Of a DNA stretch of 37,825 bases, positions 1 to 15,527 are shown one piece after another. The translations under genes and the position numbers were made by a program. A model generated the notes under the pieces. It saw only the letters and a program-made list of their open reading frames with translations, did not search any database and was not told the origin of the DNA. Each line of letters opens with the position of its first letter. Position 1 is the stretch's first letter. The stretch is from the NCBI GenBank assembly GCA_025358575.1, contig JANYJA010000032.1:1-37825 (forward strand), read 5' to 3'. This DNA is from Terriglobia bacterium (GTDB lineage Bacteria > Acidobacteriota > Terriglobia > Bryobacterales > Bryobacteraceae).

Positions 1-655
1 CGAGGACTTCGTCAACCGTCTCGCCAAGCCCAAGCATGAGTCCGGATTTCGTCGGAGTCGCCGTCGACAAGCTCTTCGCGTACTCCAGCATGTCGAGCGA
101 TCGCTCATAACGCGCGCCCAGACGAACCTGTCGATAAAGCCGCGGCACAGTCTCGGTATTGTGGTTGAGCACGTCGGGACAAGCGCGCATCACCGTCTCC
201 ATAGCTGCGTGATTCCCCTGAAAATCTGGCACCAACACTTCAACTTTGCAGCCCGGCACGCGCCTTCGGATAGCTTCGATTGTGTCTGCAAAGAGCGATG
301 CGCCGCCGTCTTTCCGGTCGTCGCGGTTTACGCTCGTAACCACCGCGTAAGTGAGGCCCATCGCTTCCACCGCCTCGGCGACGCGGTTCGGCTCATCGAA
401 ATCGACAGGCAACGGCGCGCCTTTTTGCACCGCGCAGAATCCGCAACGCCGCGTGCACACGTTGCCGAGAATCATAAAGGTTGCGGTACGCCGATTCCAG
501 CACTCACCCACGTTGGGGCACGCCGCACTCTCGCAGACAGTGTGCAGCTTCAGGCGCGAGATTAAAGATTTCAGATCGCGATAGTTGTCGCCGACCGGCG
601 CGGGTGCGCGCAGCCAAGCTGGTCGGGTCAGGGGTGCGGAAAGAGAAACAAGCAC
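1..655 (-). CDS. lipA: Lipoyl synthase, partial (C-terminus beyond window)
   Basis: Radical SAM enzyme that inserts two sulfurs into protein-bound octanoyl groups to make lipoate for 2-oxoacid dehydrogenases and the glycine cleavage system. Both iron-sulfur cluster motifs are visible: the family-specific N-terminal CX4CX5C (Cys41, Cys46, Cys52) and the radical SAM CX3CX2C (Cys67, Cys71, Cys74). The stretch KSGLMLGLGET, typical of the family, lies close to the window edge. About 218 codons are present, so roughly the last third is missing. I chose the GTG at 655 because it is the first start after an in-frame TAG at 670-668. It lies 7 nt after the stop of the formimidoyltransferase gene, so the two are probably cotranscribed. 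Identification is secure; the start is likely but not proven. Confidence 0.95.
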   Translation of the reverse strand, partial: MLVSLSAPLTRPAWLRAPAPVGDNYRDLKSLISRLKLHTVCESAACPNVGECWNRRTATFMILGNVCTRRCGFCAVQKGAPLPVDFDEPNRVAEAVEAMGLTYAVVTSVNRDDRKDGGASLFADTIEAIRRRVPGCKVEVLVPDFQGNHAAMETVMRACPDVLNHNTETVPRLYRQVRLGARYERSLDMLEYAKSLSTATPTKSGLMLGLGETVDEVL

Positions 656-662
656 GAAACTA

Positions 663-1547
663 CTATTCTAACTGGCCGACAGCACGCAGCCGGTTCTCGA
701 GCACCGACTCCTCTGTCAAATTTTGCCATTGAAGATCGTGGTCGGCGGATGGCGCGAGCGCCCGTTCCGGAATCAGGCCAATCAACTCGCTCCCAATTAA
801 ATGAACACCAGAGGCTTCCGCGCGCCTTTTCACCATCTCAAAAACCATGTGAAGAGGAGTGCGCTCAAAATCCGTTAGGTTGATCGCAACCTGAGTGATA
901 CCGCGCGAGACCAGTTCAAGTCCCATGGCCTTTACGCATTGCAACCCGCCCGACGACTCGCGAATTTCACGCGCGATGCGGCGGGCAATTGTGATGTCCG
1001 CAGTCGCGAGTTGGATATTCCACGCGATCAAAAACGGTCGCGCCCCCACAACCACCGCGCCCGCTGTGGCATGCCGGCCTTCGCCCACATCCGGAGGGAG
1101 GGAGGATGCGAACTTGCGAATATTCTCCAGGCGCCGGCACTCGGGCCGGCGGGCCGCGGCTTCATAGAGATAAACCGGAACCTGCAGACGCGTCCAGATC
1201 TTAAGCGCCAGCCGCTCCGCCATCCCCGCGCATTCAGCCAGCGAGATGCCGCGCACTGGAACGAACGGCACTACGTCGGCAACTCCTATCCGTGGATGAA
1301 CGCCCGCATGTTCCCGTAAATCGATACACCGAACTGCCGCCGCCACGGCTTGGAAAGCGGCCTCTTCGACCGTGCCCGGAGACCCCGCGAAGGTAATCAC
1401 GGTGCGGTGATGATCAAAATCTGAGGTGCGGTCCAGGAAGGCGGCGCCCCCGACATTCGCGATAGAAAGCACGATCTCGTCCACAGTGCCCGAGTCGCGC
1501 CCCTCTGAAAAATTCGGGACGCACTCCACAATCTGCGTGACGCTCAA
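663..1547 (-). CDS. ftcD: Glutamate formimidoyltransferase (FTCD N-terminal type)
   Basis: Transfers the formimino group of N-formimino-L-glutamate to tetrahydrofolate, a late step of histidine degradation. The 294-residue protein has the family N-terminus ECVPNFSEGRD and the conserved His-containing segment HAGVHPRIGVADVVPFVP (His80, His84), which contributes to the active site in characterised members. The length fits a stand-alone formiminotransferase with its N and C subdomains; no cyclodeaminase domain is attached. The start overlaps the stop of the upstream HutI-like gene by 4 bp, implying translational coupling. HutI makes formiminoglutamate in the pathway, so the pairing makes sense, although the HutI-like partner seems catalytically dead. 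No hutH or hutU lies in the window. Confidence 0.9.
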   Translation of the reverse strand: MSVTQIVECVPNFSEGRDSGTVDEIVLSIANVGGAAFLDRTSDFDHHRTVITFAGSPGTVEEAAFQAVAAAVRCIDLREHAGVHPRIGVADVVPFVPVRGISLAECAGMAERLALKIWTRLQVPVYLYEAAARRPECRRLENIRKFASSLPPDVGEGRHATAGAVVVGARPFLIAWNIQLATADITIARRIAREIRESSGGLQCVKAMGLELVSRGITQVAINLTDFERTPLHMVFEMVKRRAEASGVHLIGSELIGLIPERALAPSADHDLQWQNLTEESVLENRLRAVGQLE

Positions 1548-2821
1548 TTCTTCACGGCGCCAGAAACCCTGATGGCTCCCTCCCGATAGGTCTCGAGGCC
1601 ACGCAGAATGGTCATGTAGACATTATTGGTGCCCAACCGGGTCGATAGCTCGCGATAGTCGGTTACATTCAGGATGATTAAGTCTGCGTTCTTGCCGGGT
1701 TCGATAGATCCGCAATTTCCATTCAGGCCGGTGGCATGGGCCCCGTTGATGGTAGCGGCGGAAATCGCCTCTTCCGCGGTCAGGCCGAGATGCCGGGTTG
1801 CGAGCCCAATGATCCGCTGCATATTCAGACTCGGATTGGATTCGGGATGGGAGCCGGATGCGAGCGCAATTGCGCCACCTGCATCGACCAAAGCGCGGCC
1901 CGGATCGTAGGGGTTCCCGTTCTGGAAATGAACTCCAGGCAGAAGCGTCGCGATGACACTAGACTTCGCAAGCTCCAAGATGCGAGAGGCGCTGAGCGAA
2001 TATAGATGAGAAACTGCGTGTGCTTTCACTTCCAGCGCGAGAGAAACGGCATGGTCGGAACCGAGCGGATCGCCTTGAACCTTGATCAGATAGCCCAGCG
2101 CGCGAGCGCCGCTCAAATAGACTCGCGCGGGCTCCTTGGCGCACCCGGCAGCATCGCAAAGTAACTCCACAATACTGGCCAACTTGCGTTCGTGCACCTG
2201 AGTGAGTATGTCTTTATCTAGAGAGGTGGCAAAGAGAGCCGAAACGATCTGAACCGGCCGGCCATCCAAAAACTTCTGCCCGCGCAAAATCTTAATTGCG
2301 GCGGCATCTCCAACACTTTCCTCAACGTAGGATTGGATGGATCCCGTGCCGTGTCGGGCCATTGAGTGGGTGATGCGCTCCGCCTGAGAATTTAGACGCC
2401 GAATTGAAACGCCTTCCAGATTTTGAATGCCGTTGTCGGAGATTTCAGAATTGACTCGATCCAGCGAGACGATGGACGTCTGAGAATCGACGAATGCCGG
2501 CATCACCACGCGACCCGATGCGTCCACCTCATGGGCTCCCCGGACTGAGCTCATGTTCTCCAGGCGGCGCGTCGGACCGACTTCTTCGATTATGCCGTTG
2601 CGGATCAACACCGCTCCATCCCGGATCACGTGAAGTTCCCGGAGGTCGAGCCCGCGACGCGGACCGGGAGGGCCACGGAGCGTCACCAGCTGGCTGGCTC
2701 CGCGTACTAAAGTAAGGCCGGCCGGTTTTGTTTCCACGCGGGCGCTGTTGTGGGCTTTCAGCTGGGACTTAGTTTCCGAACGAGATTGAACGTTTTTCAC
2801 GGATAAGCATTGAAGTAACAT
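1544..2821 (-). CDS. HutI-like amidohydrolase lacking metal ligands
   Basis: A 425-residue homologue of imidazolonepropionase (HutI). It aligns by eye along its length: DLHVIRDGAVLIRNG, a beta-strand ending in PAFVDSQTS where HutI has PGxVDxHTH, LLPGVHF, NPSLNMQ and the C-terminal SIEPGKNADLIIL. All four metal ligands appear replaced: the HTH pair by Gln114 and Ser116, the His of the HADE motif by Gln249, and the Asp of the ATD motif by Gly323. A neighbouring conserved His (His272) remains. The frame is uninterrupted over 1.28 kb and coupled to ftcD, so this is not simple decay. It may be a pseudoenzyme, or a hydrolase with different chemistry. The first ~35 residues look non-homologous, so a later start is possible; no clear ribosome site precedes 2821. 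Confidence 0.75.
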   Translation of the reverse strand: MLLQCLSVKNVQSRSETKSQLKAHNSARVETKPAGLTLVRGASQLVTLRGPPGPRRGLDLRELHVIRDGAVLIRNGIIEEVGPTRRLENMSSVRGAHEVDASGRVVMPAFVDSQTSIVSLDRVNSEISDNGIQNLEGVSIRRLNSQAERITHSMARHGTGSIQSYVEESVGDAAAIKILRGQKFLDGRPVQIVSALFATSLDKDILTQVHERKLASIVELLCDAAGCAKEPARVYLSGARALGYLIKVQGDPLGSDHAVSLALEVKAHAVSHLYSLSASRILELAKSSVIATLLPGVHFQNGNPYDPGRALVDAGGAIALASGSHPESNPSLNMQRIIGLATRHLGLTAEEAISAATINGAHATGLNGNCGSIEPGKNADLIILNVTDYRELSTRLGTNNVYMTILRGLETYREGAIRVSGAVKN

Positions 2822-2876
2822 TCATATCACAGATGTTTACAGCCCAAGGATAAACTTTTATGCGCCCTCGCCCTGA

Positions 2877-2882
2877 TACAAT
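2877..2882 (+). promoter_or_regulatory. Putative -10 element, leaderless start
   Basis: TACAAT in the context GATACAATTG lies exactly 6 nt before the GTG at 2889. Transcription would start at or next to the start codon, and no Shine-Dalgarno sequence is present. The -35 region is weak (CTTTTA at 2855-2860 with a 16-nt spacer). The same arrangement occurs at 8452 and, with TATATT, at 29064. Confidence 0.5.
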
Positions 2883-2888
2883 TGCGGC

Positions 2889-3950
2889 GTGATTTCAGAC
2901 GCTCCAAGTTGTAAGAATTTGAGCCGGCGAGGTTTCTTCGCGTCCACGCTGGCAATCGCCGCTGCGGCTCGCGGCGATCAAAAATTCACCGGAACTCCGC
3001 CCGCCAGCCGCATGGGCATCGCGACCACTTCATATATCGGCGTCAAGATACCGAATGACGCCAACGAATTCCTGGAACACGCTCATGCGTTGGGGGCAGG
3101 CGGGATTCAGGCTAACCTGAATTCGCTCGAGTCGGCGGATTTACGGAAACTGAAAGACCGCGCCGAGACCTTGGGCATGTATATCGAGACCATGGCCTCG
3201 TTACCGAAATCCGCGGTGGATGCGCTGCTGTTCGAAAAAAACCTGGCGGCAGCGAGGTCCGTAGGTGCGCTGGCTGTGCGGGTTGCCGGTCTCAGTGGAC
3301 GGCGTTATGAAAACTTTAAGAGCTTAAGCGACTGGCAGCAGTTTGTCACCACCAGCATCGACGCCATCAAGCGCGCCGTTCCAATCGCCGAAAAGCACAA
3401 GATACCGATCGCTCTTGAAAACCACAAAGATTGGACGCTCGACGAAATCGTTCCAATCCTGAAAACACACTCGAGTGAATACCTCGGCTCCTGCCTCGAC
3501 TTTGGGAACAATATGTCACTGCTCGACGATCCCATGGCCGTGGTTGAAGCGCTTGCTCCCTATGCCGTATCCACGCACCTGAAGGATATGGCGGTGGAGG
3601 AGTATCCCGAGGGTTTTCTTCTATCCGAGGTGCCCTTCGGCGAGGGGATGCTCGACCTGAAGAAGATGGTAGCGGTCGTTCGCGAGGCTCGACCCAAAAC
3701 ACGCTTTACCCTTGAAATGATCACGCGCGATCCACTTCAGATTCCGTGTTTGACCGAAAAATACTGGGTGACGTTTCCAGACCGCAGCGGACTCTATTTG
3801 GCGAAGACCATGGCTATGGTCCGCAACGAATCAGGCCGCCTCGAAAAGCTTCCGCGAGTCGGTTATCAGTCTGAAACCGCGCGCAGGCGGCTGACTGAAG
3901 AGAACAATGAGATCTGCCTGCACTACTCCCGCGAACAACTCGCGCTTTGA
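2889..3950 (+). CDS. Secreted sugar phosphate isomerase/epimerase-like protein
   Basis: A 353-residue xylose isomerase-like TIM-barrel protein (AP endonuclease 2 superfamily). The N-terminus carries a twin-arginine-like signal (LSRRGFFASTLAIAAAARG), suggesting Tat export of a folded metalloprotein. Candidate metal ligands in family order are Glu in ALENH, Asp in CLDFGN, His in THLKD and Glu in TLEMI, so the site looks intact. A C-terminal extension of about 45 residues follows the barrel. The substrate cannot be read from sequence; relatives act on sugars or inositol derivatives. The GTG start is supported by the -10-like element just upstream. The next gene begins 9 nt after the stop. Confidence 0.8.
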   Translation: MISDAPSCKNLSRRGFFASTLAIAAAARGDQKFTGTPPASRMGIATTSYIGVKIPNDANEFLEHAHALGAGGIQANLNSLESADLRKLKDRAETLGMYIETMASLPKSAVDALLFEKNLAAARSVGALAVRVAGLSGRRYENFKSLSDWQQFVTTSIDAIKRAVPIAEKHKIPIALENHKDWTLDEIVPILKTHSSEYLGSCLDFGNNMSLLDDPMAVVEALAPYAVSTHLKDMAVEEYPEGFLLSEVPFGEGMLDLKKMVAVVREARPKTRFTLEMITRDPLQIPCLTEKYWVTFPDRSGLYLAKTMAMVRNESGRLEKLPRVGYQSETARRRLTEENNEICLHYSREQLAL

Positions 3951-12407: not shown

Positions 12408-12599
12408 TTCCATTCGAACTGGACACTCACTTTCCGCACTCCTGGCAGCCTGTGCTCTTAAGTGCCGTTTACCGAACGACGCTCGTTGCCGGGTTGTTGT
12501 CGCCGCCGTCGCCGCGGCAACCGATAGGCGATCGGCTGTTCTTGATTCTTGAGATCTTGATCATCCTGACGATGCCTCCAATGGTCGCGCCAATGGTTG

Positions 12600-13519
12600 C
12601 GGTGCACTCTTGGGCACCCGGGGAGGCCAAAGTATTCAGTTTGATGCCGCTCGACAATACCCTCGCTATCCTCACCACCACCGCCCGTATCTTTGCGATC
12701 CCGACGCGCTCCACAAATCCGTATGTGCGCTCCAGATACTTGGCGTTCTCGCGATAGTATTGAATAAAAATAGCGATGCGCTGTAACACCTCATCGTGAC
12801 CGTTCACCACGCAGAGTAAGTCGCCTTTCCGCACATGCGCTCCCGCCGCCCCGCCGATGTAGATCTCCCAATGTCCGCCCTCAATTGCCACGGCACCGAC
12901 ATCTTTCACCATCGCTTCGGAACAGTTCCGGGGAAATCCCGCCATCGCCAGCTTCAGCTTCCCAGGGCTATCTAATCCTTGAAAATATTGTTCGATCCTG
13001 ATCGCTAGCGTGGTGCTGTCCCCCACGCCAAACCGGCAAAATTCCGTTCCAATGCAGCTCTTGCAGGTGCGATCGCGCTTCCCGTAAGCGTGGCCCGAGG
13101 GCATTGGGCCAAATGGTGGCCAGCAGAGTTGCCAATCCTGGCTTACTCGCCGGATCTTCTTTCCCTCCCGCAAGCTCCGCAAAAACCGCCGATACCGACT
13201 TCAGATTCTTCTCGCGGCACGCCAGAATCAGCTCCGGCTTGGCGAGTGGAACTCCAGGAACATAGTAATGCATCGAAGGATCTTCTTCTATCTGCCCGCC
13301 CGCGGCCCATTCGATGATTTCGGCCACCAGGCTCTTGCACGATCCGCAGCCCATCCCCGCGCGCGTCGCGTCCATCACGACCTTGGTGCTTCGCTTCCCG
13401 CTCTTGACACAGTTCACGATCGCGCCATTGCTCACGCCGGTGCAGTTGCACACCTGGGCGTCGACGGGGAGTTCTTTCAGCGTCACTTTCTCGGAAGGCG
13501 CCCCGATGTCAAAAATCAT
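12600..13519 (-). pseudogene. nirB: nirB remnant (nitrite reductase large subunit)
   Basis: C-terminal remnant of the NAD(P)H nitrite reductase large subunit. Reading down the minus strand, about 13519-13110 encodes the BFD-like [2Fe-2S] domain (VCNCTGVSNGAIV and MGCGSCKSLV) and the start of the siroheme domain (HYYVPGVPLAKPELILA, KSVSAVFAELAGGKEDPASK). Near 13108 the frame shifts straight to MPSGHAYGKRDRT, so about 80-100 residues normally found between TIW and this motif are missing. The cluster segment then continues (CKSCIGTEFCRFG, GFPRNCSEAMVKDVGAVA) to LERTYGFVERVGI. A further frameshift near 12680 leads to EDSEGIVER. The N-terminal FAD/NAD domains are absent. The end is diffuse; 12408-12600 holds nothing I recognise. 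The gene cannot make an active enzyme. Confidence 0.85.
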
Positions 13520-14293
13520 ACGACATCGAATCCGCTAGTCCGCTCATCGATAAATTCCTGATCGATATACCCCTCTTTAATCGCGACGTTCAACAAGCCA
13601 CTCGCGAGCGCCGCATCGGTGCCAGGCGAAATCTGCAAATGGAGCGTCGCGGCTGCGGCCGTCGGAGTGGCGCGGGGTCGACCACGATGAGAGACCCTCC
13701 ATTGCGCTTCTGCTCATCGAAATACTGCATGATCGGGGGCATGGTCTCGGCCATGTTACTGCCAATCAAAAGGATCGCTTCAGCTTTTGGAATGTCTACC
13801 AGCGGGGACGGGAGCCCGCGATCCACGCCGAACGCTTTGATGGAAGCCGCTGCCGCCGAGGCCATGCAGAACCGCCCGTTGTAGTCGATCTGCCAGCTTC
13901 GCAGCGCCACGCGAGTAATTTTGCCCAGCAGATAAGCTGCCTCGTTGGTAAGACCGCCCCCGCCGAAAACTCCCACCGCATCGCTCCCGTACTTATTTCT
14001 CGCGGAAGAGATTTCAGCCACCACGCGATCCATTGCTTCGTCCCACGAAGCCCGTCGCAGAGGCTGTCCTCGGCCCTCGCGAATTAGGGGGTAAGTTAGC
14101 CGCTCGGAATGGTCCAGAAGCTCGGCCGCCGTCCATCCCTTTTGGCAGAGGCCTCCCCGATTGGTCGGAAAGTCGCGCTTGGCGACCGTGGTGCGGCCTC
14201 CGAGTTCTACAGATTCATACCACACTGCAAGGCGCAGTACGGGCAATGGGTTTCGCAGGCGACAGCCGGGGCCGCCGCGCTACGCTGAGACAT
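13516..14293 (-). pseudogene. nasA: nasA remnant (assimilatory nitrate reductase)
   Basis: N-terminal remnant of the molybdopterin-dependent assimilatory nitrate reductase. From the ATG at 14293 it reads MSQRSAAAPA and the [4Fe-4S] motif HCPYCALQCGMNL, then hits a TAG. A shifted frame carries on with FPTNRGGLCQKGWTAAELLDH, GSDAVGVFGGGGLTNEAAY, YNGRFCMASAA and LLIGSNMAETMPP. A second shift after VVDP near 13680 is followed by ISPGTDAALASGLLNVAI and ends at TSGFDVV. About 270 of some 700 residues remain; the rest of the molybdopterin domains is deleted, and the sequence runs directly into the nirB remnant at about 13520. This junction is a deletion fusing the two genes out of frame. Confidence 0.88.
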
Positions 14294-14298
14294 AAGCG

Positions 14299-15527
14299 TC
14301 AGACGGTTCCTTCGGCGACCCGATCAGCAGACCGGCTCTTAACGCGGCGGCGCGCGGCCACGTTCGCGACCAATAGCCCTTTAGCCATAGCAGCGCCCCG
14401 CGCCCGAGAATATGAGCGCCATGAGAGTGGCAAAGCCGTCCCGAAGCTGCCCGTCTTGTCTTTCACGATCCCGAGCAGCGAAGGCGCAGAAATCCGCCGA
14501 AGCCGCCAGCCGCACCCACCAGGCCGGTTAGGATACCGACCCGATCGGGAAATCGTTGCGGCACCAACTGGAACACCGACCCATTGCCCATTCCGAGCAT
14601 TCCCATTCCAAGCGCCAGGAGGCCCAAGGCGACCGGCGCCGGCGGCATAGTGGCCACGCCCCCCAAACATAGCCCGGCCACTGCGAACAGCACAATTAGC
14701 ATTCGGTAGCCGCCCAGCTTGTCGGACCCCAATCCGCCCACAGGCCAGAGAAAACTTCCAAACAGCACCACGAAAGGCGTGAAGTCCCCTGAGTGAACTT
14801 TGGTCAGACCGTATGGGTCGTGGAAAAAAATAGAAAGGTAGCTCGCCAGACCGACAAACCCGCCGAACGTCAGGCTGTAAATCATGCAGAACCAAAGGGT
14901 GTCGCCGATTTTGAAAAGAGAGACGTAGTCCGCCCATCGTTTTACGGGGCGCTCCCCTGGTGCATTCTGGGCCAGCATGAAGAAGACGATCCAAACCTCA
15001 ATCACCGGGACCATGGCGATACCGAAGACGCTGCGCCAGCCGAGAGCCTGGGCGATGCGCGGGGCGAAGAGAGTCGCCAGCAGCGTTCCCGAGTTCCCCG
15101 CTCCGGCAATCCCCATCGCCAGACCTTGGTGCTCCGGTGGATACCACCCGCTCGCCATGGGAAGCGCCGCCGCGAAACTCGCACCCGCCACGCCCAGCAG
15201 CAAACCCAGACCGATAAAAGCCGAAAAGCTATCGGCCCATTGCCACGCGACGACCAGAGGAATTAAAGTAACACTCATACCGATCAGCCCGGTCCGCCGA
15301 CCGCCATACCGCTCCGTCATCCACCCCAGGATGGGCCGAAAAAAAGACCCTCCGAGCAGTGGAACAGCGGTAGCAGGCCTTTCTGTGTCGCCGATGACTT
15401 ATAAGCTTCGCCTATATGGGCCGAGCTGCCCGAGAATGACCCACACCATGAAGCTCATATCGAAGTACAAAAAGGCGGATAGCAGCGTCGGCGGATGGCC
15501 CGCTTTTCGGAAATCTCGCAGTGACAT
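14299..15527 (-). pseudogene. narK: narK remnant (nitrate/nitrite MFS transporter)
   Basis: Major facilitator transporter of the NarK family, broken by at least four frameshifts but nearly full length. It starts at the ATG at 15527 with [20 protein letters not shown] and [15 protein letters not shown]. Frame changes follow near [17 protein letters not shown] (about 15405) and before VPLLGGSFFRPILGW (about 15370). A long intact stretch follows (15320-14463) with MTERYGGRRTGLIGM, WYPPEHQGLAMGIAGAGNSG and LVGAAGGFGGF. The frame changes again at about 14490 to APSLLGIVKDKTGSFG and once more to GFATLMALIF. Nearby genes of similar composition are intact, so general sequencing error is unlikely. It heads the narK-nasA-nirB remnant. 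Confidence 0.87.

Follow-up and report, generated by a model that had tools for sequence, protein, structure and literature searches.

CRMP/dihydropyrimidinase-like proteins have an amidohydrolase fold devoid of metal ligands, are non-catalytic and act in eukaryotes as tetrameric cytoskeletal adaptors. In Pseudomonas, the gene of the pseudo-dihydroorotase (pDHO, PyrC') adjoins the transferase gene of ATCase. This pDHO is a dead subunit that serves ATCase (PMC7053772). According to a comparative-genomics study, formiminotransferases, including the COG3643 protein of Acidobacterium, can replace 5-formyl-tetrahydrofolate (5-formyl-THF) cycloligase, as judged by their complementation of E. coli ygfA (PMC3223725).

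The gene described here lies in a stretch of 37,825 nucleotides from a Terriglobia bacterium of the family Bryobacteraceae (contig JANYJA010000032.1, positions 1 to 37,825; hereafter the window). Its product shares with imidazolonepropionase (HutI, EC 3.5.2.7; for example B. subtilis HutI, structure 2bb0) the whole fold, 28–30% identity and the operon order before ftcD, and differs from it by the replacement of all four metal ligands, the loss of the conserved pocket and a genome without urocanase. With pDHO it has in common a dead amidohydrolase without zinc ligands, a retained fold and a transferase as companion, the partnership with the transferase being putative here; unlike pDHO, it derives from HutI and not from DHOase, its putative partner is FtcD, ligand loss is graded within one family and part of the barrel has been deleted in some members. 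The likeness to CRMP lies in the amidohydrolase fold without metal ligands, whereas CRMP has neither an operon partner nor a barrel deletion. The moonlighting glutamate formiminotransferase (COG3643) that replaces the cycloligase is paralleled by FtcD presence and cycloligase absence across the family; the difference is the HutI-like companion, none being described with that route in the papers searched. A literature search whose reach left out most subscription papers returned nothing relevant on a dead HutI pseudoenzyme.

The HutI-like protein of the window

Table 1. Features of the locus, in window positions
Feature	Positions	Strand	Remarks
lipA, lipoyl synthase	2..667	-	truncated by the window edge, limits are those of the frame only; next gene, same direction as ftcD
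ftcD, glutamate formimidoyltransferase	663..1547	-	294 aa, without cyclodeaminase domain; H84 kept
TTGA overlap of hutI-like stop and ftcD start	1544..1547	-	4 bp
HutI-derived pseudoenzyme ORF	1544..2821	-	425 codons; TIGR01224 match, 2bb0 alignment, AlphaFold2 model
C-terminal segment	1592..1831	-	residues 331-410; conserved in dead copies, retained in barrel-deleted ones
Barrel segment	1832..2485	-	residues 113-330; conserved catalytic residues gone; middle deleted in genera g55 and g78
G323 in place of D324	1853..1855	-	alignment; Gly in 81% of dead copies
H272, sole active-site histidine retained	2006..2008	-	alignment
Q249 in place of H249	2075..2077	-	alignment
HxH pair site, Q114 and S116 in place of H80 and H82	2474..2482	-	alignment
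N-terminal composite beta-sandwich segment	2486..2719	-	residues 35-112, with RRLENMSSVR (85-94); best-conserved part of dead copies

The original prediction had described an intact frame of 425 codons encoding a HutI homologue in which all four metal ligands are replaced, and both statements stand. The frame is free of stops from an ATG at 2821 to a TGA at 1546–1544; the true start is likely a GTG at 2737 (397 codons), since relatives begin near residue 33 and residues 1–28 have a pLDDT below 50 in the AlphaFold model. The best profile match is TIGR01224 hutI (163 bits, E 9e-48, below the equivalog cut-off of 298 bits), the closest solved structure is 2bb0 (E 2e-37), and the protein is homologous to the amidohydrolase superfamily with its catalytic residues lost. 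In the alignment, DPHTH of 2bb0 corresponds to DSQTS (112–116), KIHADE to KVQGDP (247–252), SADHLV to AVSHLY (269–274) and ATDFNPGS to ASGSHPES (321–328), which accounts for H80, H82, H249 and D324 of 2bb0, its four zinc ligands. The AlphaFold2 model (pLDDT 89, pTM 0.89) superposes on 2bb0 with a Z of 51.6 and 1.9 Å over 370 residues, with both the TIM barrel and the composite beta-sandwich of the HutI fold complete. The replacements thus do not stem from faulty alignment, and the superposition speaks against intact ligands at other positions of the protein.

Promoter and terminator signals were not found in positions 2600–3100, upstream of the ORF, and the window contains no match to RNA families or defence families. 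Elsewhere in the window (12469–15320, minus strand), nitrate-reductase-like and MFS-transporter-like frames (by eye) appear short and split across several reading frames, as a pseudogene or sequence errors would produce.

Graded loss of metal ligands in the family

The comparison with relatives covered 237 genomes from this family, mostly metagenome assemblies in which a single absence may be a gap. A HutI homologue was found in 152 of the 237 with the full-length query (E 1e-30); this query misses barrel-deleted forms, so a profile search with the sandwich segment was added, which also catches intact copies and gave matches in 189 of 237 (E 1e-18). Among 174 aligned rows, four ligands are retained in 50, three in 39, two in 15, one in 23 and none in 47. 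The ligand losses that the original prediction had wanted looked for next to ftcD in relatives are present as a graded series, many of them beside ftcD and with a pattern that differs by genus: replacements are of the DPDAV type and RxR in genus g50, DPGLR and LLWPG in g51, and HTM and HAAL in g5. A further group of 28 rows (the HHHHN clade: L005, L006, L008, L076–L081, L084, L089–L092 and others) keeps H80, H82, H249 and H272 with Asn for the Asp ligand; its members may be enzymes whose activity has changed, or they may be at the beginning of decay. Random substitutions and frameshifts in relatives had been named as evidence against a maintained protein; ligand substitutions do differ between lineages, and frames are open except in a few split copies (L058, L060, L192), which may be real breaks or assembly faults.

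Homologues sampled in other phyla outside the family are nearly all intact, the two dead ones (L285, L294) being labelled only Acidobacteria, and from this sampling ligand loss is read as the derived state. Dead copies are scattered over a tree whose deep branches are weakly supported, which implies that ligands were lost several times.

Ligand retention follows the histidine pathway. Of 50 intact copies, 47 come from genomes with urocanase, and 55 of the 70 copies that retain one ligand or none come from genomes lacking it (genome-level Fisher p 7.5e-15, uncorrected for shared ancestry). In all ten examined urocanase-positive genomes that carry a dead or ligand-poor copy, a separate intact HutI is located in the hutU neighbourhood.

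Selection on the dead copies

Selection rather than decay had been argued from the intact frame and the overlap with ftcD, and the codon comparison, carried out on dead relatives, agrees with it. Pairs of dead copies with unsaturated dS gave an omega of about 0.02–0.22 (pairwise codon model; some dS values were saturated and reliance was placed on pairs with dS below about 2), with likelihood ratios against omega = 1 of 59–486; these values are similar to those of ftcD and of intact HutI. For the window copy itself purifying selection appears indirectly: among the 46 columns with at least 90% conservation in other dead copies it retains 45, at the end of a branch of 0.91 changes per column. 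A decaying pseudogene with a frame open by chance or recency would fit the way losses track urocanase loss, as decay would, and the few split relatives mentioned above; it is very improbable given the low omega of dead relatives, the constrained columns that the window copy kept after 0.9 substitutions per site, and the open frames in nearly all genera. The window protein is almost certainly a HutI-derived pseudoenzyme under selection.

Conservation is distributed unevenly along the protein. The identity of the window copy to its relatives is 58% for the sandwich and 28% for the barrel; in intact pairs that have diverged to a similar extent the two values are 48% and 46%. Where intact HutI shows at least 90% conservation, dead copies retain 11 of 12 columns of the N-terminal part, 9 of 43 columns of the barrel and 18 of 19 of the C-terminus. 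Dead copies conserve R85, R86, N89 and R94 better than intact ones do, and the basic motif RRxENLxxAR to which they belong is near-invariant in dead and HHHHN copies and present in about half of the intact enzymes.

The strongest single argument for a function kept outside the catalytic centre is provided by genera g55 and g78, which have deleted the barrel middle and remain under selection. The gene beside ftcD in ten examined g55 and three g78 genomes encodes a protein of about 260–340 residues that has retained the sandwich and the C-terminus, whereas the stretch between profile positions of roughly 100–160 and 280–320 is missing or unrecognisable; pairs of these copies gave an omega of 0.07–0.18. 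It is a safe conclusion, as far as sequence comparison goes, that the working part of the pseudoenzyme would be the composite domain.

These forms also bear on the suggestion of the original prediction that the protein might bind a formimino compound or use metal-free chemistry. The notion of a repurposed enzyme, whose barrel would perform new or metal-free chemistry, draws on the full fold of the window copy, on the HHHHN clade with all its His ligands and a change of D to N, and on genus g5, where ligand-poor copies (L146, L147, L149, L152, L154, L024), unlike those of other genera, show the same strict conservation in the barrel as in the sandwich (omega about 0.015). Lineages like g5 may indeed use the barrel or pocket. 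Overall the notion is improbable, since pocket residues vary between and within genera, few of the conserved barrel columns survive and g55 and g78 have dispensed with that region. The variable pocket residues and the deletions contradict formimino binding in the old pocket, and metal-free chemistry there was likewise judged unlikely.

Linkage to ftcD

The 4-bp overlap noted earlier is real provided that ftcD begins at TTG, a start that the ftcD alignment supports. Much as the pDHO gene adjoins that of its transferase, the gene overlaps that of its possible partner, and an overlap of the hutI-like stop with the ftcD start occurs in most linked loci of relatives. In about 36 related loci lipA has been conserved as a neighbour, whether the HutI copy there is intact or dead.

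Such an overlap could also mean that the frame is a translational leader, kept only for ribosomes to reach the ftcD start. This is scarcely credible, because a leader would not conserve particular residues of the sandwich and C-terminus, and copies unlinked to ftcD are conserved too.

In the 18 species of genus g50, as in g8, dead HutI is unlinked to ftcD; ftcD mostly does not adjoin the HutI-like gene in the HHHHN clade, and genera g24 and g53 possess ftcD with dead HutI undetectable. FtcD therefore cannot strictly need dead HutI everywhere. No neighbour is shared by the unlinked dead copies compared (g50, g51 and others). In genus g50 (L142, L143, L156, L159, L162, L174), dead HutI is located directly downstream of a secretin-like gene (GspD/PilQ-type by eye). 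A rhomboid-like membrane protein gene neighbours the unlinked HutI-like copies of g51, and other unlinked copies have a divergent neighbour gene that resembles a pseudouridine synthase by eye.

These unlinked copies, the presence of ftcD alone in g24 and g53 and the enrichment of RRxENLxxAR in dead and HHHHN copies are what one would find if the sandwich of the pseudoenzyme had a function of its own (binding of a ligand, protein or nucleic acid) untied to FtcD, with the neighbourhood as a relic of an old hut operon. This is a real possibility, if a minority one, for against it the ftcD linkage and start overlap persist over large divergence in most dead copies and in every examined barrel-deleted copy except one.

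FtcD and its probable role in the disposal of 5-formyl-THF

The genome from which the window comes (assembly of 4.77 Mb, 95.6% complete) yielded no second HutI, the point on which the original prediction had wanted the genome checked, and no urocanase (TIGR01228), cyclodeaminase or 5-formyl-THF cycloligase. Its best HutH match (412 bits) falls below the family cut-off of 539 bits. With urocanase, another HutI and cyclodeaminase absent and HutH below its cut-off, FtcD can hardly serve histidine breakdown in this organism; with the cycloligase missing as well, it probably disposes of 5-formyl-THF. The HutH-like ammonia-lyase gene (G000:C146:6712–8175), found in this genome without urocanase, is possibly another aromatic ammonia-lyase.

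A scaffold or regulator of histidine breakdown had been proposed earlier. The scaffold or regulator type is possible and preferred here; its tie to histidine breakdown does not hold, since this genome has neither urocanase nor cyclodeaminase and most dead copies reside in urocanase-less genomes. A histidine-pathway scaffold was rejected for this genome on the absence of hutU and cyclodeaminase.

Of the 237 genomes of the family, 222 carry ftcD (146 of the 148 good ones) and 1 has the cycloligase, which 11 of 14 controls possess. The catalytic-type histidine is kept in 100% of the FtcDs beside dead or barrel-deleted copies. In the window FtcD it is H84, which we take to be the equivalent of the porcine catalytic His. 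From this co-occurrence and the published complementation, we infer that the family retains FtcD for 5-formyl-THF disposal without cycloligase.

Proposed origin and role

On this reading, ancestors of the family had a functional HutI gene flanked by hutU and ftcD. Comparison shows that the metal site decayed in lineages that gave up histidine breakdown or entrusted it to a second HutI, with the composite beta-sandwich and C-terminal parts remaining under purifying selection, and that the barrel middle was later deleted in two genera. FtcD would have been kept for disposal of 5-formyl-THF in bacteria without cycloligase, with dead HutI most likely as its non-catalytic partner, held at a fixed ratio through translational coupling. 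Contact with FtcD might be made through the sandwich face that bears the RRxENLxxAR motif, in a manner like that of the dead dihydroorotase in Pseudomonas ATCase. The putative partnership with FtcD draws on the linkage, the overlap and the Pseudomonas ATCase precedent (PMC7053772), and ftcD without dead HutI in g24 and g53 speaks against a strict need of the pDHO kind. To the whole explanation, that is, a HutI pseudoenzyme that works through its composite domain and most likely acts as non-catalytic partner of FtcD, we assign a probability of about 0.5. More tentatively, and at somewhat less than even odds, the composite beta-sandwich, normally accessory, may now be the functional unit across the family, freed first from catalysis and then from the barrel and serving one-carbon metabolism as a module for binding or assembly.

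Implications

Most pseudoenzymes come to light only when their evolution is complete. In this family the stages coexist, from complete HutI through copies that lack one ligand or all of them to copies without the barrel middle. Every stage is under selection, many of the genes still occupy the same operon, and the residual role of an enzyme after loss of its active site becomes a testable question. For annotation, it follows that hutI or amidohydrolase labels in these soil Acidobacteria do not imply histidine breakdown. In addition, disposal of 5-formyl-THF by FtcD may involve a companion that has so far gone undescribed. The strong selection on what remains of the protein, whose gene usually shares an operon with that of a folate enzyme, suggests that dead HutI is now a helper protein in a large group of soil Acidobacteria.
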